Origin: Bryobacterales bacterium
GTDB lineage: Bacteria > Acidobacteriota > Terriglobia > Bryobacterales > Bryobacteraceae
Assembly (NCBI GenBank): GCA_016789925.1
Contig: JAEUQD010000260.1
Coordinates: forward strand, 1 to 51,176
DNA length: 51,176 nucleotides
Direction: 5' to 3'
Under the pieces are notes generated by a model. That model had not been told where the DNA came from. It did no database searches and saw nothing but the letters and a program-made list of their open reading frames with translations. Shown here piece after piece: positions 1 through 31,791 of the stretch; the stretch's first letter is position 1, and each line of letters starts with the position of its first letter. Both the position numbers and the translations under genes were made by a program.

Positions 1-1
1 T

Positions 2-14689: not shown

Positions 14690-14730
14690 ACTGAACCAAC
14701 TTACCTGGGCAGACAAAGCAGAGTCCCCAT

Positions 14731-15603: not shown

Positions 15604-15635
15604 CACGTACGTTGCGTTACGCACTCCTGTGTTAC

Positions 15636-16006
15636 CTGATTGCCGCGAGGGTGGCTATCCTTTGCGAAATAATCATGCCTTGCCTTTCGACGGGCGGTTG
15701 CTTGTGCTGACGACACCCAATATGGTCTCAGGGCATTTTCGGCCTCTCGGCTGCTGGTGGATAGGAATGCTGGCTTCACTGGCTTCACATGCCCGTATCT
15801 TCCTGCTCTCGTGACGATCCATTACCTAAATTACCTAACTTTTTGAACGCATTTGCCTGACAAGCATCCAAACGTCGAGCTACCACACGCTGATGTACAA
15901 GGCAGTCTAATACCGTAAGCAGCCTACACGCGGTGATCTTACAGGGACGCCGTTGTGCGCGCATCAGGCAGTCTCATTAACCGTGGACCCCAGTTGTACG
16001 CTCCAC
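15636..16006 (+). pseudogene. degenerate partial duplicate of the downstream methyltransferase
   Basis: This gap between genes is not empty. Base by base it follows the 3' half of the methyltransferase gene at 16013-16942 (about 16560-16930). Shared stretches include tcctttgcgaaat, ctgacgacacccaa, cagggcattttcgg, gggcctgac-like, agctaccacacgc, gcgcgcatcag and ttgtacgc. The copy carries several small insertions and deletions, including a repeat of ggcttcact near 15775 and of attacctaa near 15820, and an in-frame TGA at 15812. It is therefore non-coding. The fragment ends where the ribosome-binding site of the intact copy begins. By eye roughly three quarters of bases match; an alignment would give the exact figure. 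Confidence 0.85.
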
Positions 16007-16012
16007 TAGGAG

Positions 16013-16942
16013 GTGAATCCTACGCGGAATGGCGTGGCGAGCAGTTCCGTTGACCGCGCCGACCAGGGAAGACTGACTGGGCTAGCGTGTTGGTGCGGTC
16101 AGAGCACTTGGGTGACGCTGTTTCGGACTCGCCGTTTTGGCGTCCTGCGCTGCTCCGGCTGCTCCACTCACCGGATCGATCCACCCCCACTGTGCGCCGA
16201 GAGCGAAAGTGAACGCTTTTACACTGACTATTATGAGACGGTTGGGGCTGATTCAATCGCCCTATCTGACCCTACGCGATCAAGATCCGGAGCCTTGTGG
16301 AAGGTGGCCGAACAGGTTCCACTCTTGAATCAGGTTCGGAACACTGCAATTGATATCGGATCGGGTGAAGGCCATCTGTGTGCGGAACTCGCTGGGCGAG
16401 GGTGGTCTTCCGTCGCCGGCTTTGACATATCCAGGTCTCGAGTGTCAAGAGCACGGCGACTATATCCTCATTTGCAATTTTATGATGTACCGCTGAGTGC
16501 CTCGGGGATTGCCACGGGTTCCGTTGATTTAGTGGTGATGGAGGCGGTTATCGAGCATTTGCCGGCTCCGCTGGCCTTCCTTTGCGAAATCATGCCTTAC
16601 CTTGCGCCGGGCGGTGTGCTTCTGCTGACGACACCCAACATGGATTCAGGGCATTTTCGGCTCCTCGGTCGCCGCTGGACGGGAATGCTGGCTCCGCATG
16701 CACATATCTTCCTGTTCTCGCCACGATCGATTACTCTACTTTTCAAACGCACGGGCCTGACGAACGTCCAAACCGGAAGCTACCACACGCCTATGTATAC
16801 GCCGACGCAATACCTCAAGCGCCTTGCGCATGGCGATGTTACCGGGACCCTGTGGCGCGCGCATCAGGAAGTGGGCGGGATCTACGGCCGTCTAATTAAT
16901 CGAGGACCCATGTTGTACGCCGTAGGACAAAAGCCACTCTAA
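16013..16942 (+). CDS. SAM-dependent methyltransferase with N-terminal Cys motif
   Basis: About 309 residues. The N-terminal 55 residues hold a small zinc-ribbon-like Cys pattern (CWCG ... CSGC). The methyltransferase core has AIDIGSGEGHLCAEL near residue 115, VAGFDISRSRVSRARR, and the post-motif MEAVIEHLPAPLAFLCEIMPYLAPGGVLLLTTPN. This architecture is common among O-antigen and capsule methyltransferases. The GTG at 16013 sits directly against an AGGAGG at 16008-16013, too close for use, so a second GTG at 16034 is a plausible true start. A decayed partial copy lies immediately upstream. Confidence 0.84.
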   Translation: MNPTRNGVASSSVDRADQGRLTGLACWCGQSTWVTLFRTRRFGVLRCSGCSTHRIDPPPLCAESESERFYTDYYETVGADSIALSDPTRSRSGALWKVAEQVPLLNQVRNTAIDIGSGEGHLCAELAGRGWSSVAGFDISRSRVSRARRLYPHLQFYDVPLSASGIATGSVDLVVMEAVIEHLPAPLAFLCEIMPYLAPGGVLLLTTPNMDSGHFRLLGRRWTGMLAPHAHIFLFSPRSITLLFKRTGLTNVQTGSYHTPMYTPTQYLKRLAHGDVTGTLWRAHQEVGGIYGRLINRGPMLYAVGQKPL

Positions 16943-16976
16943 GTGTCATTGGCTTTCATTGGCTCGACGACCTGCC

Positions 16977-18161
16977 ATGAACCGCCAGATCATCTATATC
17001 TGCGCTGAATACGCAGGTGTCGCCCCACGAAGCGGTGGCATCGGCCACGCCATGCGGGGTGAGGCTGAGTGGTTCGCTGCGGCAGGCGCAGATGTTACTG
17101 TGCTCTGCCCGTGTGTCGAATACTCTCGGGAGCGCGTCGTTTCGCAAAACGGCGTTTCAATTTGCATTCTGCCACTGGGTGGCGTGGCGCGGGCGCGCGC
17201 AATTCTGGAACGGATTCAGACCGTGCGGCGGGTCCGATCGTTGCTGACCGATCGACAGCCGGCACTCGTGATTGCACCGGAATACTCCGGTCCCGTTCCT
17301 TACAAAGGCTTCTCCCAGCCTTTAATTGTCCAGATCCATGGGTCGGCTACGCTCCTTGCCGCCGGTTGCGGCCACCCGGCACGAGGGGTGATCCGGAACC
17401 TTGAGTGTCGGACGGCCGCGCAGGCTGACCACATTCAGGCCGTGTCGCGATACGCCGCAACCGAGACTGCCCGAGTGTTTGGGCTTGTCTTTCGGTCCGT
17501 TTCCGTTGTGCCCAACACCGTGGATACTGTCACCTTCCAACCTGCCCGCGCTTGCGTCGATCGGAGCCGTCTCTTATATGTAACGGCGCGGCTGAGCGAA
17601 GTAAAGGGATTGTATGTGCTGGCGGAAGTTGCGGATCGGACACTTACGGCGCACGAGCGGGCGACTTTGACCGTGATCGGGCGGGACGACTCGAAAGGCT
17701 CGATGCGTGCAGCGTTCATTGCCAGAGTCGCGCCGGCACTTCGATCCAGAATTTCATTCATCGACAGTTGTAGCCGCTCTGAACTTGCGGTGCACATGGC
17801 TGGATGTGCGTTCGTTATCGTCCCCTCGCTGGTCGAGACGTTCTCGATGGTTTGCATCGAGGCGATGGCCTCCGGGCGTCCGGTCGTCGCTTCAGACCGC
17901 GGTGGGATACCAGAAGTAGTGGAGAGCGGCGTAAGTGGAATTCTGGCCGATCCGGCCGCTCCGCAGACATTCGTCACCGCTGTCGGAGAACTGCTGAGGA
18001 ACCCGGCTTTGGCCGATCGAATGGGCGAACAGGGCCGGCGATTCGCGGAGACTCGCTATCGCCCCGACGTTGTTTATCGCCAGACGGCCGCCATCCACGA
18101 CGCGCTTCTGGAGCGGCTTGGGCGTCGGGCGCCCAATGCCTTTGCTGGGAGACTGCTATGA
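16977..18161 (+). CDS. family 4 (group 1) glycosyltransferase
   Basis: A 394-residue GT-B transferase. The start contains the acceptor loop APRSGGIGHAMRGEAEWF, the linker has VSVVPNTVDTVTFQPA and LLYVTARLSEVKGLYVLAEV, and the C-terminal donor site has VPSLVETFSMVCIEAMASGRPV with the EX7E pair of retaining GT4 enzymes. The ATG at 16977 is preferred over a TTG at 16959. The stop overlaps the next gene as ATGA. It adds one sugar to the lipid-linked repeat in the cytoplasm; donor and linkage are unknown. Confidence 0.9.
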   Translation: MNRQIIYICAEYAGVAPRSGGIGHAMRGEAEWFAAAGADVTVLCPCVEYSRERVVSQNGVSICILPLGGVARARAILERIQTVRRVRSLLTDRQPALVIAPEYSGPVPYKGFSQPLIVQIHGSATLLAAGCGHPARGVIRNLECRTAAQADHIQAVSRYAATETARVFGLVFRSVSVVPNTVDTVTFQPARACVDRSRLLYVTARLSEVKGLYVLAEVADRTLTAHERATLTVIGRDDSKGSMRAAFIARVAPALRSRISFIDSCSRSELAVHMAGCAFVIVPSLVETFSMVCIEAMASGRPVVASDRGGIPEVVESGVSGILADPAAPQTFVTAVGELLRNPALADRMGEQGRRFAETRYRPDVVYRQTAAIHDALLERLGRRAPNAFAGRLL

Positions 18162-19195
18162 CCGCGCGAATGAATCCTGCTGCCGTGACGGCTAGCCCCG
18201 GACTCTTCCGCCTGTCTGGCTGGCGCAGGGCGCGCATTACTGGGCAACCGCTGGATGATTGCTCGCTGATCGTGCCGACCCTGCGCCGTCACGAGGACAT
18301 CCTCGCATTGTTAACTCACCTGACAAAGGAACCGGAGCCGCCGGGCGAATTGGTAATAGTGGACGGAGCCGGAGACGGCCAACTGGGTCTTGTCTTGGAC
18401 CGGTGGGCGATGGATGTTTCCCTGCCCTTTGACCTCGTCTATGTCGAGGGACCGCGCGGTCTGACACTGCAACGGAACGTCGGCATCGATGTGAGTCACG
18501 GTCAGTTTGTGTTTTTTCTTGACGACGACGCGCTTCCTCTAGAGGGTTATTTTCGTGCGATCCGCACAGCGTTTCTTACTAGCCCTTCGATTGGCGGTGT
18601 CTGCGGCTCGCTCGTGCTGCCTCCCTCAGCGCGTCTGCCGTACCGGTGGCGACTGCGCTTTGCGCTCCGAATCGTACCCAGAATTCGGCCGTTTGCCTAT
18701 CATCCGTCTGGCACATCGGTTCCTCCGATCCTTGCGCCGCAGGCCGGGACCCGCCCCGTCGACATCATGCCCGGTTGCGCGTTCGCCTTGCGCCGGGAAG
18801 TATTCTTGCAGCACCGCTTTTCAGCGTTTTTCACTGGCTATTCCTACGGTGAAGACGTTGAGATGTCCCTTCGCGTCGGCAAGACGTGGCGGCTGCTCTG
18901 CTGTGGCGAAGCTCTCGTCATTCATAGGCAGGCCCCAACCAACCGATTGCATGGCTTCCGTAAGGGCCGCATGGAAATGCTGAATCGGCATTTCATCTGG
19001 AAGCGCCACGTTCCGCATCCCGGCCGGATAAATCAGTTCCGGTTTTGGGCTGATGCCGCACTTGTCGTCGCGCTCGATCTCCTGTCGGCACGGTTCGCTC
19101 ATTCGGCCGGGATGATCGTCGCGGCCGGACGATGCGTCTTCAACGAACCCACCTTCGAAGAGGGCCCCGCGGCCCTCGAATATGAACTCGTATGA
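18158..19195 (+). CDS. family 2 glycosyltransferase
   Basis: A 345-residue GT-A enzyme. Features are SLIVPTLRRHEDILALL, ELVIVDGAGD, the donor-site FFLDDDALPL, and GYSYGEDVEMSLRVGK for the acceptor site. Membrane-associated hydrophobic stretches occur near ADAALVVALDLLSARF at the C-terminus. The ATG at 18158 overlaps the preceding stop; an in-frame start at 17804 lies inside the GT4 gene and is rejected. The stop overlaps the polymerase gene as ATGA, so the two are probably translated together. Confidence 0.88.
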   Translation: MTARMNPAAVTASPGLFRLSGWRRARITGQPLDDCSLIVPTLRRHEDILALLTHLTKEPEPPGELVIVDGAGDGQLGLVLDRWAMDVSLPFDLVYVEGPRGLTLQRNVGIDVSHGQFVFFLDDDALPLEGYFRAIRTAFLTSPSIGGVCGSLVLPPSARLPYRWRLRFALRIVPRIRPFAYHPSGTSVPPILAPQAGTRPVDIMPGCAFALRREVFLQHRFSAFFTGYSYGEDVEMSLRVGKTWRLLCCGEALVIHRQAPTNRLHGFRKGRMEMLNRHFIWKRHVPHPGRINQFRFWADAALVVALDLLSARFAHSAGMIVAAGRCVFNEPTFEEGPAALEYELV

Positions 19196-20544
19196 CAGAC
19201 CTTGTCCCAAGGCGGTTGCTTCTCATCCAGGTACTGATCACATGCGGCCCTCCGGTCCTGCTCCTCAGCAGCGGCAGGTCCTCAGCGGCAGCCATCTGGT
19301 ATTTCGGCGTCCTCCTGGCGATCGTGCTCTGTTCAGCCGCCGGTAAGCGTGCGGCGCCGGGAGGCGCACTCATCGTCGCAACCATTCCCTTGCTAATGGT
19401 AATTCGCGACTACTTTTCCTATAGCTCGGTATTCGCGGTTTTGGCCGTGGGAGTGGCGGTATATGTCTTCGCGATGCCGCAGAGTGTAGCCGAGTTGACC
19501 CGAAATCGGACCGCATTTGGACCTCTTGCCGCTTTGTCTCTCTTTTGGGCCCTTTCCGCGATTACGACTGGCGACGTTCTCACAAATATCCGTGCGCTCG
19601 AACTGGCGCTGGCTGTCGCCAACGTTTACCTTCTCGGGCACAGCCGCCGCTGGCTAGGGGCCAGTCTCAACGGCCTGGTCCTCTGCACCTTCCTGGTCAG
19701 CCTTGGCCTGCTGCCGTTCGGCGAGCGCCTCGGCGCGGCGCAGATTGGTGAGATCTCGCTCGGCAATCCCGCACGCACGGGCTTTCTCTCCGCCTTGGTA
19801 CTGTTACTCGCGTTTGCAGACCGTGGCCGCTGGTTGCTTTTAGAGGCAGCGCGCCGATGGATCTTCGTGATCGTTGCGGCGGCATCCTGCACCCTGGCGC
19901 TTTCCACCTCGCGAGGAGGATGGGCTGTCGCCGTTGTCATGCTGTGCAGCATTGCCGTGCTGGACCGGCGATCCCGGACGCATGTCATGAATTCGGCCGT
20001 GATCACTCTCGTTGCGGTGGTCGTTGTGCTCCAGACGGCGCGGGGCACCACCGTCATTCGCTACTTCGATAAGGTGATGTCATCAGAGAGATCAGTACTG
20101 GCGCGCACCTCGGGCCGCTCCGATCAATGGCGTGTATTCCCTACCGTTGTTTGGGATTCTCCGGTCTGGGGCCACGGTTTCGGCGCGGGGCGGCGGACTT
20201 CGTATGAGTACACCGGTGTTGGCCGCGACTTCCACTCGCTCTACCTTCACGTCGGCACAGAGACCGGTTTGCTCGGTCTGGCTATCCTTGCCTATCTCAT
20301 GGCTAGCATTGGCAGGCGTTGTCGCGACCACCGGCGAATGACTTCCGAGACCTTGCCGCTCGCAGCATTGCTCGGGTTCGCCACTATTGGGATCACCGTC
20401 AACGGATTTGACGCCATCTCGGGTGTCTACGTTGGGCTCGCGCTGCTGGGTGGTGATCTGCGTTCGCTGTACGTCGTTGTACCTACCCCCCACCAATCAG
20501 CCGAGGCACTTGATAGTACGGCCGAAACTGTTCAATCCTTATGA
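19192..20544 (+). CDS. O-antigen polymerase/ligase-like membrane protein (Wzy/WaaL)
   Basis: A 450-residue polytopic inner-membrane protein with about 10-12 hydrophobic segments. Near residues 295-380 it has the large periplasmic-loop signature of the Wzy_C/WaaL family: RTSGRSDQWR, SPVWGHGFGAG and DFHSLYLHVGTETGLLGLAILAY. Such proteins polymerise undecaprenyl-linked repeats or ligate chains to a carrier. Its presence implies a Wzx/Wzy-style step, although a Wzt-type ATPase is also in the locus and no flippase is visible. It is not an exosortase: the exosortase Cys/Arg/His signature is absent. Confidence 0.88.
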   Translation: MTDLVPRRLLLIQVLITCGPPVLLLSSGRSSAAAIWYFGVLLAIVLCSAAGKRAAPGGALIVATIPLLMVIRDYFSYSSVFAVLAVGVAVYVFAMPQSVAELTRNRTAFGPLAALSLFWALSAITTGDVLTNIRALELALAVANVYLLGHSRRWLGASLNGLVLCTFLVSLGLLPFGERLGAAQIGEISLGNPARTGFLSALVLLLAFADRGRWLLLEAARRWIFVIVAAASCTLALSTSRGGWAVAVVMLCSIAVLDRRSRTHVMNSAVITLVAVVVVLQTARGTTVIRYFDKVMSSERSVLARTSGRSDQWRVFPTVVWDSPVWGHGFGAGRRTSYEYTGVGRDFHSLYLHVGTETGLLGLAILAYLMASIGRRCRDHRRMTSETLPLAALLGFATIGITVNGFDAISGVYVGLALLGGDLRSLYVVVPTPHQSAEALDSTAETVQSL

Positions 20545-21701
20545 ATTTGTTAGTTGTCTCTCATGTGGCCCACTACCGGTGCGGTGGGAGCATCCACGCC
20601 TATGAGCCGTACGCGCGGGAGATCGAAGCTTGGGCGGATCTGTTCTCGCCCGTCGTGATCGCCGCGCCGTGCACTGATGGGCAGCCGGCCAAAGGTTGCG
20701 CTTCCATCCGGCGAAGCAACGTCAGGCTGGTGCCACAGCCCCAGGCTGGCGGGGACGCACTTTGCGACAAGGTCCGCCTCGCATGGTCACTACCGCGGAT
20801 GGTCTATGGTTTGAGCTGCGCGATGTGGCGTGCCGAGGCTATCCACGTGCGCTGTCCATGCAACTTCGGCCTGTTGGGCGCTATTCTCGCACCGCTATTC
20901 TCGCGTCGGCTCATCGCTAAATATGCCGGTGACTGGCGGGGATTCCCAAAGGAACCTTGGACGTTTCGCTTGCAACGCTGTCTGCTGTCGTCGAGCTGGT
21001 GGCATGGGCCGGTCACCGTCTACGGTGACTGGCCGAACCAGCCGGCCCATGTCGTGCCCTTTTTTTCTGCATCCATTACGGACAATGATATTGCGCGCGC
21101 TCGCACACTCCGCGATCGTGAGCTCAGTAGTCCCCTTCACGTCGTGTATGCCGGCCGACTAACTCTCTCAAAGAACGTAGGGACAATTCTTGATGCCATT
21201 GCTTTGCTTAAAGATCGCGGTATCCCTGTGCGGTGTACCATTGCAGGCGACGGTCCGATGAGGGACGCCCTAGCTGCCAAAGCAGCGCGTCATGCAATCT
21301 CGGACGCGGTTTCATTTAGCGGCGCCCTTCCATTTGAGCATTTCATGGATCTACTGGCGAGCGCCGATGTACTCGCCCTCACTTCCAATACAGAGGGCTG
21401 GCCGAAAGTATTGCCCGAGGCGATGGCCTTCGGGGTGATCTGCATCAGTACCTGCCCCGGCGGCGCCGCACGGCTTCTCAGCGAAGGCCGGGGGATTTCT
21501 GTTCCCAAGGGCGACGTGAACGGTTTGGCGGCGGCCATCGAAGACATCGCGACCCATCCGGAAAGGTACAACGAACTGCGCCACCGGGCTGCGCTGTGGT
21601 CCGAGCAGTATACGGTGGAAACATTGCGGGAGCGCCTGCGCCAGCTCACAGGTCAGTATTGGACAAATGACCTACGCGCGGCGCCGGGTATCGCCGAGTG
21701 A
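20541..21701 (+). CDS. family 4 (group 1) glycosyltransferase
   Basis: A 386-residue GT-B transferase. The N-terminal half has AEAIHVRCPCNFGLLGAILAPLF and AKYAGDW. The donor domain has LHVVYAGRLTLSKNVGTILDAIALL, CTIAGDGPMRDAL and ALTSNTEGWPKVLPEAMAFGV with an EX7E-type motif, then ISTCPGGAARLLSEGRGISVPKGD. The start overlaps the polymerase stop (ATGA). The enzyme acts in the cytoplasm on the growing glycan; the sugar is unknown. Confidence 0.9.
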   Translation: MNLLVVSHVAHYRCGGSIHAYEPYAREIEAWADLFSPVVIAAPCTDGQPAKGCASIRRSNVRLVPQPQAGGDALCDKVRLAWSLPRMVYGLSCAMWRAEAIHVRCPCNFGLLGAILAPLFSRRLIAKYAGDWRGFPKEPWTFRLQRCLLSSSWWHGPVTVYGDWPNQPAHVVPFFSASITDNDIARARTLRDRELSSPLHVVYAGRLTLSKNVGTILDAIALLKDRGIPVRCTIAGDGPMRDALAAKAARHAISDAVSFSGALPFEHFMDLLASADVLALTSNTEGWPKVLPEAMAFGVICISTCPGGAARLLSEGRGISVPKGDVNGLAAAIEDIATHPERYNELRHRAALWSEQYTVETLRERLRQLTGQYWTNDLRAAPGIAE

Positions 21702-21710
21702 TTGTATCTC

Positions 21711-22847
21711 ATGTCCACCGCTGTTCTTCATCTGATCGATAGCCTGGCCGTTGGCGGGGCCGAACGGGTCGCCGTCAGTATTGTAAATCGCCTTCCGCAA
21801 GACCAGTACACGGTCACGCTCTGCACTACGCGAAGGCGTGGCCCGCTTGCTGACGAAATCGCCCCACACGTCCAACAATTGCATTTGCAGCGTCGCTCCA
21901 CCGCCGACCCCTTTGCCGTTCACCGTCTGGCGGCCGCACTGCGACGGCAGGATGTCCGTGTGTTGCACGCCCATGGAACGTCGCTCTTTCTAGCACGCGC
22001 GGCCGCCGTCCTATCGCCCGCGACAACGGTGATCTGGCATGACCATTTGGGCCTCTGCGAAACCAAACAGAGGCCGCTCTGGATCCGGACCTACCGGCTC
22101 GGCGTCTGGAGGATCGGCGGCGTGATCGCCGTGAACCAGATGCTGGCCAACTGGGCGGTCAATGCGCTGCACGTACCGCCGGAACGGGTGTGGTGCGTTC
22201 GCAACATGGCGTGCCTGGCGCCGCGTTCCACGAATCCTCCGGTCCTCCCCGGGCGTCGAGGCAGCCGAATCGTGTGCTTGGCCAATTTCCGCCCGGAGAA
22301 GGATCACACTGTCTTGATTCAGGCCATGGCGCGCGTGGTCGCTTCCCATCCCGATGCGCATCTCCTTCTGGTGGGTGGCGGGGACCCCGGGTACGTGAGC
22401 AGGATACGTAATCTGGTGGCTCTCCATGGCATCTCCAAACGTGTCACATTCCTCGGTGAGCGTAGGGATGTACCCGACGTCCTGGGTGGCTGCGATGTCG
22501 GTGTGCTGGCGTCTGTCTCCGAAGGGTTGCCTCTATCACTGCTGGAATGCGGCTCGGCTGGATTGGCCGTCGCTGCCACAAGCGTTGGCGAGTGCCCGGA
22601 CGTGCTCGATGGTGGGCGTGCAGGCTTGTTGGTTCCTCCGTCGGATCCTGGTCGCCTTGCGGACGCCCTGCTGACGCTAGTGAACAACCTGGAGATGCGT
22701 TCTGAATACGCGCGCCGTCTCCAGATTCGCATTCGCAGCGAGTTCAGCCCGGGGCCCATCATGGATCGGATTTGCCGCATTTACGACTCTGCCACGGGAG
22801 CCCGCGGCACGGCCCGGATGAGCGCCTCCGCGGGAGCCATACAGTGA
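21711..22847 (+). CDS. family 4 (group 1) glycosyltransferase
   Basis: A 378-residue GT4 enzyme. HLIDSLAVGGAERVAVSIVN is the classic N-terminal 'GGAER' start; RIVCLANFRPEKDHTVLIQAM opens the donor domain, and SVSEGLPLSLLECGSAGLAV carries EX7E. A TTG lies 9 bases upstream in frame, but the ATG at 21711 fits the family start better. The end overlaps the next gene by GTGA at 22844. It is the sixth transferase of the run. Confidence 0.9.
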   Translation: MSTAVLHLIDSLAVGGAERVAVSIVNRLPQDQYTVTLCTTRRRGPLADEIAPHVQQLHLQRRSTADPFAVHRLAAALRRQDVRVLHAHGTSLFLARAAAVLSPATTVIWHDHLGLCETKQRPLWIRTYRLGVWRIGGVIAVNQMLANWAVNALHVPPERVWCVRNMACLAPRSTNPPVLPGRRGSRIVCLANFRPEKDHTVLIQAMARVVASHPDAHLLLVGGGDPGYVSRIRNLVALHGISKRVTFLGERRDVPDVLGGCDVGVLASVSEGLPLSLLECGSAGLAVAATSVGECPDVLDGGRAGLLVPPSDPGRLADALLTLVNNLEMRSEYARRLQIRIRSEFSPGPIMDRICRIYDSATGARGTARMSASAGAIQ

Positions 22848-24997
22848 TTACACGAGTCGCATGCACGTTTATCCTTCTGTTTGCCATGGCCGGCGCTCCG
22901 CAGGAGGTTCCCGCCCTCGTCCCTTATATCGCTCCCGGCGGCGTTCGGGATGCCGCGGTCTTGCGGACTGAAATAGCGCCGGGAATGCTGGTGACAATCT
23001 TTGGCGAGAGACTGGCCACTGAACCGGTGATCGTGTCCGATTGGCCATTGCCTGAAAGTGTCGCCGGCGTTTCAGTCGAGACGGTCACCGCCGAACTGGT
23101 GCGCCCCGCGCCTCTCCTATTCCTTTCTCCTCGGCAGATCAACGCGGAGATCCCTTATGGGGTCAAAGGCGACTCGATCGGAATCCGCGTTCGCGGCCCT
23201 TCGGGTCTGAGTGGCAGCGAGCGTGTCCCTCTGGTGCCCTCGGCGCCGCGGGTGTTCGCCATTGTCGATGTCTCGTCCGCCAGGGTCTCCCCGGAGCGTC
23301 CGGCTGCACCCGGCCAAGTGCTGACGGCATACGTGACGGGAATGGGAGAACTGGACTCGGAGGGTCTTGCAGCTGCACTTGTTCGGGCCAGAGTCGGCGG
23401 GGCGCCCGCCGATGTGCTTTACGCTGGACGCCCGGCCGGCTCGCTTCTGGATCAGATCAACTTCCGCGTTCCTCCGGATGTCGGAATTGGCGAACTATCC
23501 TTCGAACTCAGCGTTGGAGGAACGCCCTGGGAATCAGCCGCAAACCTGGCCGTCGCGGCGTCCGCTGCGCGACTTCCCAAGACGTTCCACGTGGCGGTGA
23601 GCGCTGCCCCCGGCGGCGACGGCTCCAAGGACAATCCGTGGAGCCTCTCACATGCGCTCAACCATCCTGCCGCTCTGTCTCACGGCGACACGATACTCTT
23701 GCACGGCGGCGTGTACTCGGGATCCTTCACCAGCAGGCTCACGGGAACGCCCGAGGCCTCGATTGTCGTCCGAACCGCCCCTGGCGAACGGGCCACCATC
23801 GATAGCGGATCGTCAGGACAAGACGCGCTCACAGTCAACGGAAGCTTTACCTGGTACTCGGAGTTCGAAGTCAGGTCGTCGGATCCGGTCAGGTCAACGG
23901 AAAACACGGGGTCATTCCCCGGCGATATCAAGCGTGGTTCCTGCATTACCTCGAACGGTCCGGCCAACCGCTACATCAACCTCGTCTTGCACGACTGTGC
24001 GCAGGGAGTCAGCTTTTGGACTCCTTCGGTCGGTTCGGAGTTGTACGGGAATCTCATCTACTACAACGGCTGGAATGGCGGCGACCGTGGGCATGGCCAC
24101 GGGATCTATACACAGAATGAGACCGGCGTGAAACGCATCGACGAAAATATAATCTTCGACCAATTCGGTCTCGGCATCCAGGCCTACGGTTCCAACCAGG
24201 CCGCTGTCCGCGGCTATGAGTTGACCGGAAACATCGTTTTCAACAACGGCACTCTTTCGAAGGGTGGCGCCGTCGACAACATCCTCTTCGCCGGCGGTGG
24301 GACCACGAAGGCCAATATCCGCCTGGAGGCCAATCACACCTATCACACGCCGCTGTCCAACGTCGGCCTGTCGCGGCTCGGCTGGCAATGGGACGGCGTC
24401 AACAAGGACATCGTCGCGATCGACAATCATTGGATCGGCGGAGCGCCGGCTCTCCAGGTCTGTAACTGGGATTCCGTAGTGTTCCGGAGCAACGTCCTCT
24501 ATTCAAAGAGCACAGCTGTGGCGACGCTGTTGCGCCCTTCACAAAGCCTGGCTTCCTACCAGTGGGATAAGAACGTGTACTATGGCAGTCCGCTATTCTC
24601 CATCGGAGGCCAAACTTACGGGTGGTCCGATTGGAAGGCGGCTTCCAAAGTGGACCAAACCAGCCGCTACGCGGCTGAGCCGCCGAAGGGGACTTGGGTT
24701 TTTGTCCGCCCGAACCGCTATCAGCGCGGCCGGGCAAACATTGTGGTGTACAACTGGGACCGGAAGAGCACAGTTGAGGCCGACCTGTCTTCGGTGCTCC
24801 GCCCGGGCTCACGATTTGAGATTCGAGATGCGCAGAACTTCTTCGGCGCTCCGGTGCTCACCGGTGTGTTCGACGGCTCGCCAGTGAATCTCCCCATGGA
24901 GGGGCTCCGAGTGGCGGAGACCGTCGGAACGGTGTCCGTTCCGCCACGGCACACGGCGCCCGAATTCGGGGTCTTCGTCCTGCTACCCGCTTCCTGA
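22844..24997 (+). CDS. secreted TIGR03437 / parallel beta-helix protein
   Basis: A 717-residue protein with a signal peptide (VACTFILLFAMAGAPQ). Residues 30-235 are a TIGR03437 (Solibacter-type) domain: GMLVTIFGERLA, LLFLSPRQINAEIPYG, PSAPRVF and DQINFRVP. Residues 245-600 are a right-handed beta-helix of pectate-lyase or epimerase type, recognisable from GDTILLHGGVYSG, RGHGHGIYTQN and GLGIQAYG. A C-terminal beta domain has FVRPNRYQRGRANIVVYNWD and [12 protein letters not shown]. The GTG start overlaps the preceding stop (GTGA). It is likely periplasmic or extracellular and may bind or cleave the glycan. The helix module is paralogous to residues 27-455 of the giant protein at 35512-39996. 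Confidence 0.82.
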   Translation: MITRVACTFILLFAMAGAPQEVPALVPYIAPGGVRDAAVLRTEIAPGMLVTIFGERLATEPVIVSDWPLPESVAGVSVETVTAELVRPAPLLFLSPRQINAEIPYGVKGDSIGIRVRGPSGLSGSERVPLVPSAPRVFAIVDVSSARVSPERPAAPGQVLTAYVTGMGELDSEGLAAALVRARVGGAPADVLYAGRPAGSLLDQINFRVPPDVGIGELSFELSVGGTPWESAANLAVAASAARLPKTFHVAVSAAPGGDGSKDNPWSLSHALNHPAALSHGDTILLHGGVYSGSFTSRLTGTPEASIVVRTAPGERATIDSGSSGQDALTVNGSFTWYSEFEVRSSDPVRSTENTGSFPGDIKRGSCITSNGPANRYINLVLHDCAQGVSFWTPSVGSELYGNLIYYNGWNGGDRGHGHGIYTQNETGVKRIDENIIFDQFGLGIQAYGSNQAAVRGYELTGNIVFNNGTLSKGGAVDNILFAGGGTTKANIRLEANHTYHTPLSNVGLSRLGWQWDGVNKDIVAIDNHWIGGAPALQVCNWDSVVFRSNVLYSKSTAVATLLRPSQSLASYQWDKNVYYGSPLFSIGGQTYGWSDWKAASKVDQTSRYAAEPPKGTWVFVRPNRYQRGRANIVVYNWDRKSTVEADLSSVLRPGSRFEIRDAQNFFGAPVLTGVFDGSPVNLPMEGLRVAETVGTVSVPPRHTAPEFGVFVLLPAS

Positions 24998-24999
24998 GT

Positions 25000-25656
25000 A
25001 TGCTTAAGCGCACCATGGACATCGCGGTCGCAGCGGTCGCCCTCCTGATCCTCTGCCCGCTGTTCGCACTGCTGGCGATCATCGTCAAGCTGGACTCTCC
25101 TGGGGGCGTCCTTTATCGTGCCAACCGGATGGGGCTCGGTGGCCGCCGTTTCAGAATGCTCAAGTTCCGATCCATGGTTGAGCACGCCGACGAAATGGGA
25201 CCGGGCGTAAGTGTAGAACACGACCCGCGGATTACGAGGGCCGGTGCAGTGTTGAGACGAACCAAACTGGATGAACTGCCACAACTCATCAATGTGTTGG
25301 TGGGCGACATGAGTTTGGTGGGTCCCCGGCCTGAAGCGCCCGAGTTCGTCCAGCAATACTCGGCAGAGGATATGGTGGTGCTCTCCGTCCGTCCGGGGAT
25401 CACCGATTGGGCATCCATACGCGGTGTTGACGAGGGACGTGCGCTCGCGTGCCTTGAAAACCCACAAGCCGAATACCAATCGTCGTTTCTGGCGGCGAAA
25501 TTGGAACTGCAACGAGATTACGTCCGGAATCGCAGCTTCCGCATGGATCTCTCGATTCTCCTTTGCACGGCTGTAACGCTTCTTCGTCGTTCCTGGACGC
25601 CTCCTTCGTCCAGATCCCATGCAGGACGACCTGACCTTACCCGCAGTACTCATTAG
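25000..25656 (+). CDS. initiating sugar-phosphate transferase (PglC/WcaJ-type, short form)
   Basis: A 218-residue polyprenyl-phosphate sugar-1-phosphate transferase. It has one N-terminal hydrophobic segment (AVAALLILCPLFALLAIIV), then LKFRSMVEHAD, the signature RRTKLDELPQLINVLVGDMS plus LVGPRPEAPEF, and VRPGITDWASIRG. It lacks the long N-terminal membrane region of WbaP, so it is of the small PglC-like class. It puts the first sugar phosphate on undecaprenyl phosphate at the cytoplasmic face and so starts each repeat unit. The 3' end overlaps the ATP-grasp gene by 38 bases. Confidence 0.94.
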   Translation: MLKRTMDIAVAAVALLILCPLFALLAIIVKLDSPGGVLYRANRMGLGGRRFRMLKFRSMVEHADEMGPGVSVEHDPRITRAGAVLRRTKLDELPQLINVLVGDMSLVGPRPEAPEFVQQYSAEDMVVLSVRPGITDWASIRGVDEGRALACLENPQAEYQSSFLAAKLELQRDYVRNRSFRMDLSILLCTAVTLLRRSWTPPSSRSHAGRPDLTRSTH

Positions 25657-26788
25657 CACTGCACACGACAAACTTTCGCACTTAATTGCGACGGACCTCA
25701 CGAGGCGCGGCGTGCGGGTGGAAGGCATTGGTTCGCAGTGCCCGCCGGCGTTACGTCTGTCGCGTTTACTGACGCGGTTCCATTCGGCCCCGTCACTCGA
25801 CGATCCGGCGTCGTTTGTAAATCGTGTTTGCGAGGTAATGCACGAGCGCAGGCTCACAATGTTCCTGCCATCGTGCACGGAGGTCAATCGCTTGGCCCCA
25901 TTTCAGCCGCGGTTGTCCAAAGAAGCCAACTATCCCTTTGCAGACGACCGGATCGTCAGCGCCGTCTCCAACAAAACGGAGCTCGCGTTACTAGCCGAGC
26001 AGTGCGGCGTCGCCGCTCCGCGCACCCTGCCGGCAGAATCAGTCGATGCCCTCGATCCCATGAGTCAGCTTCGATTTCCGGTCATCTGCAAGCCCAACCG
26101 CTCCTGCGACTCCAACGGGTTGGGTGTGGCGGCGACTCCCGATGCGCTCCGTCGCGCCATTTCCAAGAAGGCGGGGTTTGTCGTGCAGGAATACGTCGAC
26201 GGTCCTCTCATCGTTTGGAATGGCGTCTATCGAAGCAGCCGGTTACACGCGGTGTTCACTTTTGAAGCTGTCCGTACGTCGCCTGCCTTCTGCGGCGTTT
26301 CTGTCATGCGACGGTCCATCCATCTCCCCCAGTTGGATCGGCTCGCGGAACGTCTTCTCGCTTTCATTGGCTACGAAGGCTTCTGCTCGCTCGATTTCAT
26401 GCGCGATCGCTGCAGCGGAGACTACTTCCTCATCGACTTCAACCCGCGATTTCCGAGTTCGTTGCATGCATCGCTCGACGCGGGCATTTCATTCCCCTGC
26501 GTGCTCTTGTGCCTCACGCTGGGACGGCCGTGCCCTCCTTGCGACTATCGCGACGGAATAACGAGTCTATCCGTCAGCGGCCACATCCACCGGCTGTTCC
26601 GCCGCCGTCCTGGAGGGCCGGGCGTGCCGACACTATTGGGTGAGACTCTCACAGCCCTTCGCTGGATACACCGATCCGAGGAATCTTACCTATTACGACC
26701 GTTTCCGTTTGCTGGCCCGTTTTTCTCACTAATTGAGAGTGTCCGGCCCCAAGCGAAGCGTTTGGCGGACCAAGCACTTGGCCTCTGA
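25619..26788 (+). CDS. ATP-grasp family protein
   Basis: A 389-residue protein of the carbamoyl-phosphate-synthase/biotin-carboxylase-like ATP-grasp type. The N-terminal pre-ATP domain has FLPSCTEVNRLA. The ATP-binding segment has ICKPNRSCDSNGLGV and VVQEYVDG, and the metal-binding loop is YFLIDFNPRFPSS (usual form 'EINPR'; here Asp replaces Glu). ATP-grasp enzymes ligate a carboxylate to an amine or thiol. In exopolysaccharide loci relatives may add amino acids or peptides to sugars. The substrate is unknown. It overlaps the sugar transferase, hinting that both act on the same lipid-linked intermediate. Confidence 0.85.
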   Translation: MQDDLTLPAVLISTAHDKLSHLIATDLTRRGVRVEGIGSQCPPALRLSRLLTRFHSAPSLDDPASFVNRVCEVMHERRLTMFLPSCTEVNRLAPFQPRLSKEANYPFADDRIVSAVSNKTELALLAEQCGVAAPRTLPAESVDALDPMSQLRFPVICKPNRSCDSNGLGVAATPDALRRAISKKAGFVVQEYVDGPLIVWNGVYRSSRLHAVFTFEAVRTSPAFCGVSVMRRSIHLPQLDRLAERLLAFIGYEGFCSLDFMRDRCSGDYFLIDFNPRFPSSLHASLDAGISFPCVLLCLTLGRPCPPCDYRDGITSLSVSGHIHRLFRRRPGGPGVPTLLGETLTALRWIHRSEESYLLRPFPFAGPFFSLIESVRPQAKRLADQALGL

Positions 26789-27857
26789 AGCTAATCCGGC
26801 CGCCGGTCACGCACCACGTCGCGCCGTGTTGCTAATCGGCAATTTTCTTTCGCGAGCCATGACTACGAGAGGCGTGGGGGAGGACTTGGCCGAACATCTG
26901 GCGGCGGATGGATGGCCGGTGTTCACTACTTCCTCCTATCCTGGCCGTTTCCGTCGATTGGCGGATATGTTGTCCACCTGCTGGCGCTACCGCACTGCAT
27001 ACTCAGTCGCCCAGGTCGAGGTGTACAGCGGCGCGGCCTTCGTTTGGGCCGAACTGGTGGCCATCCTGTTGCGCATCATCGGAAAGCCCTATGTACTGAC
27101 GGCTCACGGTGGCTTGTTGCCTGAGTTTCTGGAGGCGCGCCCATTCCGCGCCCAACACCTTTTCGCCTCGGCCGCCTGTGTCACTGCGCCATCCGGCTAC
27201 CTCGCTGAAAAGTTGAGCAAGTACCGTGCCGGCGTGATCGTTCTGCCCAATGCTGTCGACATCACCGCATGCCCATTTCGGCGCCGCGACCACCCAGCGC
27301 CGAGTCTCGTCTGGCTAAGGGCCTACGAGAAGATCTACCGTCCTTGGCTGGCGGTTCATGCCCTCGCTGAGTTGTTGCGCGACTACCCGGATACGACCCT
27401 AACGATGATCGGGCCCGACCGTCAGGACGGAAGCCTCGAACAGGCCAAGCAGGCCGCCCGGGATCGTGGAGTCATGGATCGCGTCGATTTTATGGGTCCG
27501 ATCGACAAGAAATCCGTACCCGGGCGCCTTGCTCGCCATGATGTCTTCCTCAATACGACGGCCGTCGACAACACACCGGTGAGTGTGATCGAGGCGATGG
27601 CCTGCGGACTCTGTGTAGTCAGTACGTCCGCTGGCGGGATTCCGCATCTGTTGCATCACGAGAAAGACGCTCTGCTTGTCTCTGCCAACCCGGACGGCTG
27701 CGAAATCGCAGGAGCAGTTCAGAGGCTTCTCGAGGACTCATCCTTAGCCGGAGCCATCTCCATCCAGGCGAGGCACACAGCGGAAGACTGCTCGTGGGAA
27801 GCGGTTCTACCGCGTTGGGAACGTCTCCTGTCGTCTCCTGTCGGGACACGCGCTTAA
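26778..27857 (+). CDS. family 4 (group 1) glycosyltransferase
   Basis: About 359 residues. The N-terminus has LLIGNFLSRAMTTRGVGEDLAEHL, the donor domain has APSLVWLRAYEKIYRPWLAVHAL, and the GT4 site is NTTAVDNTPVSVIEAMACGLCVV, where the first Glu of EX7E is replaced by Asp. The start is uncertain: TTG 26778 overlaps the ATP-grasp stop, GTG 26826 lies just before the first beta strand, and TTG 26733 is further upstream. Near the 3' end the decamer cgtctcctgt is directly repeated. Sugar and linkage are unknown. Confidence 0.82.
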   Translation: MASEANPAAGHAPRRAVLLIGNFLSRAMTTRGVGEDLAEHLAADGWPVFTTSSYPGRFRRLADMLSTCWRYRTAYSVAQVEVYSGAAFVWAELVAILLRIIGKPYVLTAHGGLLPEFLEARPFRAQHLFASAACVTAPSGYLAEKLSKYRAGVIVLPNAVDITACPFRRRDHPAPSLVWLRAYEKIYRPWLAVHALAELLRDYPDTTLTMIGPDRQDGSLEQAKQAARDRGVMDRVDFMGPIDKKSVPGRLARHDVFLNTTAVDNTPVSVIEAMACGLCVVSTSAGGIPHLLHHEKDALLVSANPDGCEIAGAVQRLLEDSSLAGAISIQARHTAEDCSWEAVLPRWERLLSSPVGTRA

Positions 27858-27867
27858 CTGAGCCGTT

Positions 27868-29298
27868 ATGCAAAACCTTGCCACCCAAGTCTATTCGGTT
27901 GCCCCGCCAAGGCTGCGCTCCATGCTGGCCAGTGCGATGGGTTATCGTCTTCGACATCGCCGGTACGGCCCGGATGCCGAGGAATTGGTCCGGCAGGCAC
28001 TTGACCGGGAGTCTTGGAGCGAGACGACGTGGCGCGCCTGGACCGACAACCGGCTTGCCGAAATGTTGCGGCATGCGGCTGCCAACGTTCCCTTTTATCG
28101 CAATCATTGGACCGCCCGTAGGCGGCACGGCGACCAGTCGCCCGTGGAGCGCCTTGAGAGTTGGCCCATCCTCGACAAGCAGGCGCTCCGCGACCAGCCG
28201 GAGGCGTTCGTTGCCGACGGCTACAACGCTTCCCGCCTGGACCACGAAACCACGAGCGGAACGACGGGTGCCCCCATCCACTTGTGGTTCAGCTTGCGGT
28301 GCGAGCAATTGTGGTATGCCCTCTGTGAAGCCCGGTGGCGCCGCTGGAATGGCGTGAGCCGGGAAGACCGGTTCGGGATGCTGGGCGCGCAGCTCGTCAC
28401 TTCCCTGAAGCAGTCCACTCCTCCGTTTTGGGTTTGGAATGCACCGATGCGACAGCTCTATTTGTCGGCGTACCACATGCAGCCGGAGCGGCTTCCGCTT
28501 TACCTGGACGCCCTTGTTCAGTATCGGGTCCGGTACGTGTGGGGACATAGCGCTTCACTCCATGCGCTGGCTCGTGAGGCCCTTCGCACGCGCCTCGGTT
28601 CGATTCGCTTCGACCTTGCCCTGAGCACGTCCGAACCGCTCCATCCGCGCCAGCGCCACGACATTGCGGAAGCCTTCCAATGCCCTGTCCGTGAGACCTA
28701 TGGAATGGCGGAGAACGTCGCCGGCGCGTCGGAATGCAGCCAGGGGACACTGCATCTCTGGCCCGATGCGGGCCACGTCGAGTTCCTGTGCGAGGACCGG
28801 ATGGCCGCGCCCGGGCAGACCGCCGATGTCATCTGTACGGGCCTGCTCAACCCGGCGATGCCGCTCATCCGGTACAGGGTGGGTGATCTCGCCAAGGCGC
28901 CGGATCCGAGGGAACAATGCTCTTGCGGCCGCTCGCTACCGGTGATCGGTCCGATCGAGGGTCGCATCAGCGACATGCTACGCACTGCCGACGGACGGCT
29001 CATCAGCCCAAGCGCGGCCGAAATGGTCTTCGAGACTGATCTTCCGCTCGCTGAGGCGCAATTGGTGCAGGAGACGCTGAACCGGATCCGGGTTCGTTAC
29101 GTACCCGGCCCGGGATACTCGGCCCGCACCGAACAGATATTGCGAGGGCGTATTCGCGAGCGGATTGGCGATCTCGAAGTCGTCTTCGAACAAACCAACC
29201 AGATCCCTCGTGGAGCCCACGGCAAATTCAGAGCGGTTCTCTCGTTGTTACCGCCGCCCGAGAACTCGCTCGCTGCCCATACGGAGACTCAATCATGA
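27868..29298 (+). CDS. PaaK/CapK-like adenylate-forming enzyme
   Basis: A 476-residue member of the phenylacetate-CoA-ligase/CapK family. The phosphate-binding loop is TTSGTTGAPIHLWFS; then come TYGMAENVAGA, LIRYRVGDLAK, and the Cys-containing CSCGRSLPVIGPIEGR that is typical of CapK-like proteins. It would activate a carboxylate as an adenylate and transfer it to a thiol or possibly an amine. CapK-like proteins are frequent in capsule and PEP-CTERM-type exopolysaccharide loci, with no settled function. The stop overlaps the ATG of the (frameshifted) acetyltransferase gene. Confidence 0.87.
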   Translation: MQNLATQVYSVAPPRLRSMLASAMGYRLRHRRYGPDAEELVRQALDRESWSETTWRAWTDNRLAEMLRHAAANVPFYRNHWTARRRHGDQSPVERLESWPILDKQALRDQPEAFVADGYNASRLDHETTSGTTGAPIHLWFSLRCEQLWYALCEARWRRWNGVSREDRFGMLGAQLVTSLKQSTPPFWVWNAPMRQLYLSAYHMQPERLPLYLDALVQYRVRYVWGHSASLHALAREALRTRLGSIRFDLALSTSEPLHPRQRHDIAEAFQCPVRETYGMAENVAGASECSQGTLHLWPDAGHVEFLCEDRMAAPGQTADVICTGLLNPAMPLIRYRVGDLAKAPDPREQCSCGRSLPVIGPIEGRISDMLRTADGRLISPSAAEMVFETDLPLAEAQLVQETLNRIRVRYVPGPGYSARTEQILRGRIRERIGDLEVVFEQTNQIPRGAHGKFRAVLSLLPPPENSLAAHTETQS

Positions 29299-29345
29299 GT
29301 CAGGTGCCCATCATTCCCTTGGGCTCAGCGGATCTCGATCAAAGT
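29295..29345 (+). other. frameshifted 5' end of the acetyltransferase gene
   Basis: An ATG at 29295 overlaps the CapK stop (ATGA) and opens a frame reading MSQVPIIPLGSADLDQ, which looks like a normal GNAT beginning. The continuation ('VARIHCASFPQSLLSR') is in the +1 frame from 29344. One extra A in the CAAAG run near 29340-29343 would explain the break: with CAAG the two parts would join as ...DLDQ-VARIH.... Either the gene is frameshifted, the base is a sequencing error, or ribosomes slip here. Confidence 0.72.
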
Positions 29346-29967
29346 GGCCCGGATCCACTGCGCCTCTTTTCCGCAAAGCCTCTTGTCCCGGACGGGACCT
29401 TCTGCCGTAACTCGCTACTACGACTGGCAATTCCTGGGTCCCCAGAGCGTTACGGCGCAGGGAGTTCATCTCGACGGTCGTCTGGCCGGATTCTGCATCT
29501 CCGGAGTGTTTCAGGCGGCAATGCTCGGCTTCCTGCGCCGCAACCTTGGCCTCCTCGCCCGAGAGATCGTCCGTCACCCGCGTCTGCTCTTTACGCCGCT
29601 GTTCGCCGAGAGACTCCTCTTCGGGGTCTATCTCTTTTTAAGACCTCGTGGCGAGGCCGCCGGACCCCTTGAGAATCCTTACCGCATTCTGTCTTTGGCA
29701 GTCCATCCGGACTTCCAGGGACGCGGCGTGGGCCGAGCCTTGTTGGAGGCCGCTGAACTGGCTGCTCTCGCCTCCGGCGTTTCCACGATGAGCCTGCGGG
29801 TGGATCCACTCAACGAGACCGCAATCCGCTTGTACAAGAATCACGGCTGGCGAGAGAGCCTCGAGGCTGGAAAGTGGCGAGGGTTAATGGTGAGGGTGCT
29901 CGCCGTCCACACCGTTTCGCCGGCAACACTCACCCTTGGCCACCAGGAAGGTCATGCTCATGGCTGA
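29344..29967 (+). CDS. GNAT N-acetyltransferase (5' end disrupted)
   Basis: A 207-residue acetyltransferase of the GCN5 superfamily. The acetyl-CoA-binding motif A is clear: LSLAVHPDFQGRGVGRALLEAAELAA (R/Q-x-x-G-x-G/A loop), followed by SLRVDPLNETAIRLYKNHGWRE. The open frame begins at a GTG at 29344, but this is likely internal; the coupled ATG is at 29295 in another frame. RIHCASFPQSLLSR is a typical first helix of the family, so the GTG-start product would lack only the first strand and may or may not fold. It probably acetylates a sugar amine made by the nearby aminotransferases. Confidence 0.8.
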   Translation: MARIHCASFPQSLLSRTGPSAVTRYYDWQFLGPQSVTAQGVHLDGRLAGFCISGVFQAAMLGFLRRNLGLLAREIVRHPRLLFTPLFAERLLFGVYLFLRPRGEAAGPLENPYRILSLAVHPDFQGRGVGRALLEAAELAALASGVSTMSLRVDPLNETAIRLYKNHGWRESLEAGKWRGLMVRVLAVHTVSPATLTLGHQEGHAHG

Positions 29968-30799
29968 CTTATGTGCGACTCCGGCCCGCGGCGCCCCAGG
30001 GCTCCGTGAACTCATCAGGCGCACCCTGCCTCCGTCCTTGGTACTGATTCTTGCCCAATTACGCCGCACGGTTATCCGCACGACATACACTTCACCGGAC
30101 CATTGGCGTTCTCGCGCGCTTCGTACCACGGGATCAAAGGTACTTTGGGGCAACGAAACTTACAACCGTCTGTTTCGCCAAATCCAAGCCCGATTTCTCC
30201 AGCCTTATGTCGAGCGCCTTCCATCCCATGCCCACGTGCTGGATGTCGGCTGTGGCGTCGGCGATGTCAGCCGCTTGGCCCTCTCCATGCGTCCGGACCT
30301 CTCCATCGATGCGGTCGACCTCCCGGAAATGATCGCCGCCGCAACCCGGGAGTGCCCTTTGCCCCAGATCACGTACATTGCCCGCAAGGCGGAAGACTTC
30401 TTCGATTCCTCGAAGGCCTATCACCTCGTGATTTCCTCCGGCTGCTTCGGCATAATTGCCGAGATCCCAAAGCTCGAGAGGGCGATACGCAACATCGCGT
30501 CGATGACCGCTCCCGAAGGTGTCGTGATCATGATGGAGCCGCTTCACACCTGGAGATACCTTGCCCGCGCGAACTATGGGTCCAGTCAAGTTATCCAACT
30601 CGTGTCCGGACTGGGCTTCGAACTAATCGTGAGAAGCGGCGCTCTGTTTTGGCCCTACCAACCGTGGCTGACCCGCTCCGAGGTTCCAGCCTCCACGGTC
30701 GAAGCAAGATTCGCGCAAGGAGAACGGTTGCTCAGCCGGCTGGGTACGAACAAGTGGGCAGACTACCAGTTTCTCGTATTCGCGAGAAGTCTCCAATGA
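29954..30799 (+). CDS. class I SAM-dependent methyltransferase
   Basis: A 281-residue methyltransferase. The SAM motif is VLDVGCGVGDVSRLAL around residue 95; DAVDLPEM ends strand 2, and VISSGCFGIIAEIPKLERAIRNIASMTAPEGVVIMMEP is the motif II/III region. The N-terminal 80 residues are basic (RRTLPPSLVLILAQLRRTV) and may contact membrane or acceptor. ATG 29954 lies 5 bases after an AGGAAG and overlaps the acetyltransferase by 14 bases; ATG 29960 is an alternative. It likely O- or N-methylates a sugar of the glycan. Confidence 0.84.
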   Translation: MLMADLCATPARGAPGLRELIRRTLPPSLVLILAQLRRTVIRTTYTSPDHWRSRALRTTGSKVLWGNETYNRLFRQIQARFLQPYVERLPSHAHVLDVGCGVGDVSRLALSMRPDLSIDAVDLPEMIAAATRECPLPQITYIARKAEDFFDSSKAYHLVISSGCFGIIAEIPKLERAIRNIASMTAPEGVVIMMEPLHTWRYLARANYGSSQVIQLVSGLGFELIVRSGALFWPYQPWLTRSEVPASTVEARFAQGERLLSRLGTNKWADYQFLVFARSLQ

Positions 30800-31782
30800 A
30801 CGTGCTCGCCGACACAGCCCGGTTTCTAGCTTATCATCTCCTCCCCCGTGAGTCGCTGGCGCGGAGGCTTGCTGCATGCTTTGCCATGCCGGGATTCAAA
30901 TTCCAGCCAGAGTTCTCCGGCCGCGTGGCGATCTTAAAACTGGCGCGCCATTTCCTTGCCGCTGGACACCGGCCCGTCGCCCTCCTGCCCGACTATCTCT
31001 GCAATGTCGTCGAAGTTGCTGTCCGGAAGGCTGGCTTCGATATTCTGCACTACCGTACCGACGACCTCCTTGAACCGGATCCCACCGCTATCGTCCGTGA
31101 ACTCCAAACCAGTGCTCCTGGCCTCCTGCTCACGTCCAATATGTTCGGATCTTCCGCTCTCCTCGATGCCATGCCAGACGACACTTTCCGCGCGGCTGTT
31201 CTATCGAGCGGAGTCGCCGTCCTCGTCGACCTCTGCCAGGATATCTCCCTCATCCACCGGCTACCTTCCGGTTATGGCAATTGTCTCGCCGCGGTAGTTA
31301 GTTTCAACGACAAGAGCTTTCCCAGCGTTATGGGTGGAGGTATCCTGGCCCCCTTCCCTGTTCCGCCTAGTTCCAAGCGGCTCGCCTGTCGTGAGGTTCT
31401 GAAGTTGTATCGGGAACTGGGCATAAAACTGTTGAGCGCCACCGGTATTGTCCCGCGCCGCACCCAAGCCCGTTTCGAGTACTCGCATTGCGCACGCTTC
31501 CCATATACCTTCGAGTTGTACGAACCGGCACGCATTCAGTACATCCTGGGACTCATCGGCTTTAATCGTCTGAACGAACGAAATCGCCTGAAGCTTGATC
31601 ACGCGCGGCGGACTCCAGACGTGAGACGGACCCGCTTCTTCGAAACAGCCCCGTTTCTGATAACCGGCTCGACTCCTCCTCGGGGTCGCCGCAAGCCCTC
31701 CTATGCGCGGTTCAACCAACCCTTGGAAAGCCTCCGGCCTGACCTTCACGCCATTCACAATAAGGGCTTTTGGGATTCCTAA
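30796..31782 (+). CDS. DegT/AHBA-synthase-like PLP protein, divergent
   Basis: A 328-residue protein I place tentatively in the DegT/DnrJ/EryC1 aminotransferase fold. ALLPDYLCNVVEVAVRKAGFDILHYRTD matches the 'P-x-Y...A-V...G...D' region, AVLVDLCQDISL matches the cofactor-Asp region (usual 'EDAAQ'), and VVSFNDKSFPSVMGGGI matches the PLP-Lys region (usual 'SF...K...GEGG'). The protein is about 60 residues shorter than normal family members. ATG 30796 overlaps the methyltransferase stop; the frame is open upstream to 30103 but that part is a shadow. It may make an amino sugar, or be a non-catalytic partner of the classical DegT enzyme encoded at 34343. Confidence 0.58.
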   Translation: MNVLADTARFLAYHLLPRESLARRLAACFAMPGFKFQPEFSGRVAILKLARHFLAAGHRPVALLPDYLCNVVEVAVRKAGFDILHYRTDDLLEPDPTAIVRELQTSAPGLLLTSNMFGSSALLDAMPDDTFRAAVLSSGVAVLVDLCQDISLIHRLPSGYGNCLAAVVSFNDKSFPSVMGGGILAPFPVPPSSKRLACREVLKLYRELGIKLLSATGIVPRRTQARFEYSHCARFPYTFELYEPARIQYILGLIGFNRLNERNRLKLDHARRTPDVRRTRFFETAPFLITGSTPPRGRRKPSYARFNQPLESLRPDLHAIHNKGFWDS

Positions 31783-31791
31783 GTGTGACTT

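Follow-up and report, generated by a model that had tools for sequence, protein, structure and literature searches.

The window analysed here is a stretch of 51,176 nucleotides from a Bryobacterales bacterium (assembly GCA_016789925.1, contig JAEUQD010000260.1, positions 1 to 51,176, forward strand), and it encodes two putatively secreted proteins, P0001 and P0002, that share a right-handed beta-helix and lie in and beside a glycan locus. P0001 (22844-24997, + strand) is predicted to be a protein of 717 amino acids, with a GTG start at 22844 and a stop codon at 24995-24997; P0002 (35512-39996, - strand) is predicted to have 1494 amino acids. These coordinates and sizes are as given in a preliminary description of the same DNA. 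On the best reading, both are members of a new family, so far uncharacterised, of secreted proteins that combine a right-handed beta-helix with a beta-sandwich; no paper on such a family was found in the open-access literature.

P0001 begins with a TIGR03437 (Soli_cterm) domain at residues 35-237 (22946..23554, +; NCBIfam E 2e-37), which scores 129 bits against the NCBIfam cut-off of 29 and has no sequence relatives in the PDB. The beta-helix follows at residues ~246-613 (23579..24682, +). In P0002 a signal peptide, called by eye, is followed directly by the beta-helix, from residue 27 to ~350 (38947..39918, -), and three pairs of PKD and Laminin_G_3 domains were found by domain search after residue 460 (35515..38619, -); the protein also has a long Pro-Thr linker encoded by a tandem repeat (36485-36609). 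BLASTP alignment and AlphaFold2 (AF2) modelling showed the region behind the helix to be one more common beta-sandwich domain (P0001 residues ~617-717, 24692..24994, +; P0002 residues ~353-455, 38632..38940, -), and the shared unit is therefore the helix plus this single sandwich. The two copies thus carry different accessory domains on the same module, as had been proposed, and such extensions also vary across homologues: C-terminal extensions contain PKD (14/30), Malectin (11/30) or LamG_3 (5/30) domains, dockerin and SLH are also represented among the accessory modules, and TIGR03437 is present in only three of 19 N-terminal extensions, for which reason it was rejected as a fixed partner of the helix.

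The relationship between the two modules is clear. P0001 aligns with residues 26-455 of P0002 at 44% identity over 486 columns (355 bits, E 2e-110), by comparison with a top score of 25 bits among 500 shuffled sequences, and all motifs listed in the preliminary description occur in identical order in both proteins: DRGHGHG at residue 414 of P0001 and 195 of P0002, GLGIQAY at 442 and 223, FVRPNRY at 620 and 359, and a further shared 12-residue motif at 661 and 400. The first of these opens a longer motif found by motif search and alignment, DRGHGHGIYTQN in P0001 (residues 414-425, 24083..24118, +), which is a candidate active site and has a 12-residue counterpart of DRGHGHGxYxQN type in P0002 (residues 195-206, 39379..39414, -); GLGIQAY spans residues 442-448 of P0001 (24167..24187, +) and 223-229 of P0002 (39310..39330, -). 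On this sequence evidence we judge the helix modules to be true paralogues, in agreement with what had been claimed. In the tree, P0001 falls in a clade of eight rows (support 98/91), six of them labelled as glycan loci, while P0002 is placed outside this clade, close to multi-copy forms. Recent duplication was ruled out because the copies sit in different clades and their DNA similarity is confined to two short stretches; they appear to be old paralogues. No third helix copy was found in the source genome, a metagenome-assembled genome with an estimated completeness of 87.6%, and a tblastn search of a plasmid collection gave no match.

A search for relatives returned full-length homologues with 32-48% identity in neighbouring genera, frequently as two or three adjacent copies that often bear different extensions. 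Scanning of species genomes gave 64 helix loci, mostly from Acidobacteriota but also from Gemmatimonadota, Planctomycetota, Verrucomicrobiota, Bacteroidota, Chloroflexota and Campylobacterota; this retrieval used a close six-row profile, a more diverse first profile having been dropped. Three divergent relatives (L036:11406-13172, L037:11739-13124 and L041:10790-12595) have SHGPGxYxRN in place of GHGHGxYxQN and are possibly, judging from this motif, a functional subfamily. The cultured strain Pyrinomonas methylaliphatogenes K22 has a homologue (L109 4065-6287, -) ~10 kb from NeuB and is a good candidate for laboratory work.

The beta-helix proposed in the preliminary description was well supported by structure prediction. 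The AF2 model of P0002 residues 26-459, based on a 69-row alignment, is a right-handed parallel beta-helix with a C-terminal beta-sandwich (pLDDT 95.3, pTM 0.95); the model of P0001 residues 22-717 agrees with it in the helix (mostly pLDDT >93), with lower confidence in the TIGR03437 part. Four asparagines conserved at 93% or more in the 69 rows (N243, N277, N307 and N329; P0002 numbering here and below) form an inner Asn ladder which, together with the pLDDT of 95 and VIA-align Z scores of up to 28.7, places the module in the right-handed parallel beta-helix (pectate-lyase-like) superfamily. Foldseek ranked the polysaccharide lyase (PL) family 9 enzyme Pel9A first (E 1.9e-9), followed by rhamnogalacturonan lyase, GH120, PL6, GH136, PL31 and RbmB. 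With VIA-align, the P0002 model gave Z scores of 28.7 for both Pel9A and BT_1002, 27.0 for the PL31 alginate lyase PsAly, 25.8 for an alginate epimerase/lyase, 24.6-24.9 for AlgE4/AlgE6 and 23.4 for RbmB; the P0001 model returned the same set of neighbours, with a Z of 25.9 for AlgE4. AlgG was absent from the top-50 structure lists, an absence that carries no weight. Fold likeness alone is no proof of function.

Conserved side chains in the helix were judged from alignments of relatives. In a sample of 12 (the two window copies and ten from a whole-protein search, none selected by motif), residues E122, R130, H164, D165, R196, Y203 and N206 are invariant; H198, H200, Q205 and Y229 are conserved at 88-94% in the 69 rows, a set partly fetched with a pattern containing RGHGH that covers positions 195-203. 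Eleven of 17 conserved side chains fall within residues 160-230, and a polar cluster centred on DRGHGHGxYxQN is kept in both P0001 and P0002; a lack of conserved residues between the copies, which had been named beforehand as a point against a common activity, was thus not what we found. When the 69-member family profile was compared with known structures, PsAly was matched at E 1e-8 over 293 positions, although the single-sequence comparison reached only E 0.014. In this profile alignment Tyr203 aligns with the catalytic Tyr184 of PsAly and His200 with its cation ligand Glu181 (PsAly numbers being taken as chain index plus 34, with residue letters checked at H154, R156, E181, Y184 and K221). 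The catalytic pair of PsAly is Tyr184 and Lys221 (PMC6796002), so that the Tyr of the PL31 pair is matched in the family and the Lys is not; the helix family appears to be at most a distant relative of PL31. Tyr229 or His/Gln227 on the adjacent strand can be suggested as catalytic bases, as guesses. As to other lyase families, there was no PL6 (chondroitinase B) match in Pfam or NCBIfam at E <= 1, PL6 structures were matched by the profile mainly across the N-terminal cap, and PL9 rhamnogalacturonan lyase was found at E 6.6e-6 with a 12-row profile and was unlisted with the 69-row profile, the PL9 fold match being strong.

The glycan locus that contains P0001 extends over 29..35560 (+) by domain searches. 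Its genes encode a NeuB-type synthase truncated by the contig end, SDR and FkbH proteins, a protein of 429 amino acids without a Pfam or NCBIfam match (3805..5094, +), a PgaB-like deacetylase, NeuC, a CMP-sugar synthetase, PGDH-like and AsnB-like proteins, Wzt, several glycosyltransferases and a Wzy_C/O-antigen ligase protein, together with a sugar phosphotransferase, a PaaK-like ligase, a radical SAM protein and a DegT aminotransferase. At the start of P0001, its GTG and the TGA of the preceding glycosyltransferase (GT4) gene overlap as GTGA, and the downstream gene begins 2 nt past the P0001 stop. P0001 is therefore an operon member, and the overlap indicates that it is translationally coupled to the glycosyltransferase gene. 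P0002 lies outside the operon and is convergent with the locus, sharing 49 nt with the end of the DegT gene.

Several features of this region deserve mention in their own right. The genes from NeuB to Wzt (window 1-12243, +) form an unusual nonulosonate cassette whose order is kept across genera and whose product may be an amidated or acylated sugar. The contig starts within NeuB (window 1-634, +), and another contig of this assembly, C735, has a second NeuB fragment. The 3805-5094 protein is conserved at 47-57% in such cassettes, and one in-frame stop occurs in the aligned stretch of several of its homologues, perhaps from a wrong start or a frame effect. A secreted HpiC1-like protein, whose PEP-CTERM signal is weak, adjoins P0002 (window 40359-40994, -); a linkage of this neighbour to the helices was rejected as no homologue lies beside other helices, and the PEP-CTERM proteins that do adjoin helix homologues are unrelated to it.

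The association with glycan genes recurs in relatives. Glycosyltransferases are the commonest immediate-neighbour families of the helix genes (Glycos_transf_2 in 9/97, Glycos_transf_1 in 7/97), against a background of 35 Glycos_transf_1 matches in an entire 6.9 Mb genome. Within 10 kb, at least one glycosyltransferase or polymerase gene was found in 25 of the 64 loci and at least two in 18, both of them minimum figures, since many contigs are cut. In 11 genomes (G000, G001, G003, G005, G061, G062, G063, G067, G068, G069 and G075) a single contig carries both NeuB and the helix, at a distance of 10-27 kb, and G033, where the helix is cut by the contig end, is probably a twelfth. Apart from gaps in some genomes, the gene order NeuB-SDR-FkbH-3805-PgaB-like-NeuC-CMP-PGDH-AsnB-Wzt is kept; in several genera the P0001-type genes are flanked by the same GT4 genes.

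Association of the helix with any NeuB was weak (Fisher p 0.055). The link is to one type of cassette, and we tested it with an independent marker gene, that of the 3805-5094 protein; NeuB subtyping by bit score, being post hoc, does not count as proof here. Among 200 genomes of the same family the marker was present in 13 and the helix in 18; all 13 marker carriers had the helix, the marker never occurring without it, and in 11 of the 13 both lie on one contig. The hypergeometric p is ~1e-16 by genome and 3e-8 by genus, values that overstate significance because related genomes are not independent; the genome handles used for this set and for the NeuB linkage partly name the same genomes twice. 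Five of the 18 helix-bearing genomes have no cassette. The glycan link made in the preliminary description therefore held, with P0001 inside the operon and its setting recurring in relatives. The concern raised there, that homologues might lie mostly outside glycan loci, does not apply to the closer relatives; for many of the distant ones (Planctomycetota, Bacteroidota, Chloroflexota), no glycan gene was detected in the surrounding 10 kb.

These distant homologues are also what might be expected if the proteins were enzymes against foreign polysaccharide, for nutrition or competition, that stand beside the glycan locus by chance or by hitch-hiking. The position of P0002, convergent and outside the operon, and the plant-polysaccharide enzymes among the nearest structures (Pel9A, rhamnogalacturonan lyase, BT_1002) point the same way, but we consider this explanation unlikely given the coupling of P0001 within the operon, the place that its clade keeps between GT4 genes in several genera, and the complete co-occurrence with the cassette marker.

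Given that the helix resembles enzymes that cut sugar polymers and, within this bacterial family, accompanies the cassette gene, the two proteins probably serve to trim the cell's own coat or to release it. More specifically, we propose, at roughly even confidence, that P0001 and P0002 process the cell's own nonulosonate-containing surface glycan by cleaving it. Both proteins would leave the cytoplasm via their signal peptides (called by eye), and the cleft of the helix, with the DRGHGHGxYxQN and GI(H/Q)xY strands along its walls, would hold the polymer and might cut it by lyase or hydrolase chemistry. Such cutting could set chain length, clear misplaced polymer or release coat material, as RbmB does with Vibrio polysaccharide, and the TIGR03437 domain and the PKD/LamG units may put the same catalytic module at different sites. 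We tentatively extend this to a new carbohydrate-active enzyme family for nonulosonate polysaccharide, in which a His/Tyr site, differing from the Lys/Arg sites of beta-helix lyases known so far, would be combined, in paralogues at different envelope places, with interchangeable binding modules.

A number of observations weigh against cleavage of the cell's own glycan. Conservation at residues 195-203 in the 69 rows is inflated because those positions belonged to the retrieval pattern, and without them side-chain clustering reaches only p 0.024. The base Lys221 of PsAly has no counterpart, its column holding E/D/R/T, and neither His154 nor Arg156 is conserved. The fold itself is not specific to enzymes, as the non-enzymes NosD and the adhesin PfbA appear in the top structural list; many distant homologues, as described above, lack a detected glycan neighbour; and known lyases of the beta-helix fold need hexuronate, whereas only five of the 11 linked genomes (G005, G062, G063, G068 and G069) have a UDP-glucose/GDP-mannose dehydrogenase (PF03721) on the contig that carries the helix, although some contigs, that of the window included, are cut and could hide such a gene.

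The missing Lys and the match to PfbA would fit a non-catalytic surface or matrix protein, in which the helix binds the secreted glycan and anchors or organises it with the PKD, LamG, Malectin or TIGR03437 domains, without cutting. The accessory modules of the family, being mostly of binding or adhesion types, and the side-by-side copies with different extensions are also consistent with this. We regard such a role as possible but rather doubtful, as the conserved His, Asp, Arg, Tyr and Gln side chains concentrated in three coils exceed what a pure scaffold would need, and the top-ranked structural matches are mostly carbohydrate-active enzymes. The hexuronate question bears more directly on a glycan modifier that does not cut the chain, for example an AlgE/AlgG-type C5-epimerase acting during or after export. 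Its structural support is the similarity to the alginate epimerase/lyase and to AlgE4/AlgE6; C5-epimerisation, however, requires hexuronate, the constant acidic sugar of the locus is nonulosonate, and no mannuronan C5-epimerase (AlgG/AlgE) family was matched in Pfam or NCBIfam at E <= 1. A general C5-epimerase or hexuronate-lyase role is thus disfavoured, since hexuronate genes are inconsistently linked, and we hold epimerisation to be very improbable. Of the earlier suggestion of lyases or C5-epimerases, the first half is plausible and the second has been weakened.

Acidobacteria are abundant in soils, yet to our knowledge there has been almost no study of how their surface glycans are made and turned over. 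What this analysis newly contributes is the conservation of the cassette, the test of co-occurrence and a candidate active site; the helix family, present in every genome found with the cassette marker, is a concrete candidate for a glycan-sizing or glycan-releasing enzyme and might yield a new class of depolymerases for nonulosonate polymers.

Among known systems, PsAly (6kfn) is the best profile match across most of the helix. It differs in that Lys252, like Lys221, His154 and Arg156, is not conserved in the helix family, and in being a 33 kDa protein without the sandwich which, in the available part of its report, is not described as a member of a glycan-synthesis locus (PMC6796002). Pel9A (1ru4) and the rhamnogalacturonan lyase 5olr are close in fold (VIA-align Z 27-29) but share 14-18% identity and act on plant substrates; Pel9A uses a Lys base, and no conserved Lys/Asp set was found in the helix family. 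Pel9A also has Ca sites. The AlgE/AlgG C5-epimerases are of the same helix class but have 11-13% identity, without a family match or a consistent hexuronate pathway in the helix locus; AlgG is itself located in its own glycan locus. PelA is a precedent for a locus-encoded enzyme that cuts its own polymer (PMC9894940), and hydrolases of the PelA/PgaB type (PMC9894940, PMC5933820) share this logic with the helix family but not its fold or sequence family. RbmB, a product of the V. cholerae biofilm gene cluster, cleaves Vibrio polysaccharide (PMC11637428). Its structures (9ozl, 9ozd) align with the models at Z 23.4 for P0002 and 25.9 for P0001, but at 13-14% identity; the glycan is different, and RbmB gave no match in the family-profile search of the PDB at E 0.1. 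We know of no TIGR03437, PKD or LamG modules or sandwich in RbmB. In location, the helix family resembles RbmB: both are parallel beta-helix proteins, secreted or, in the helix family, putatively so, and encoded with genes for glycan synthesis.

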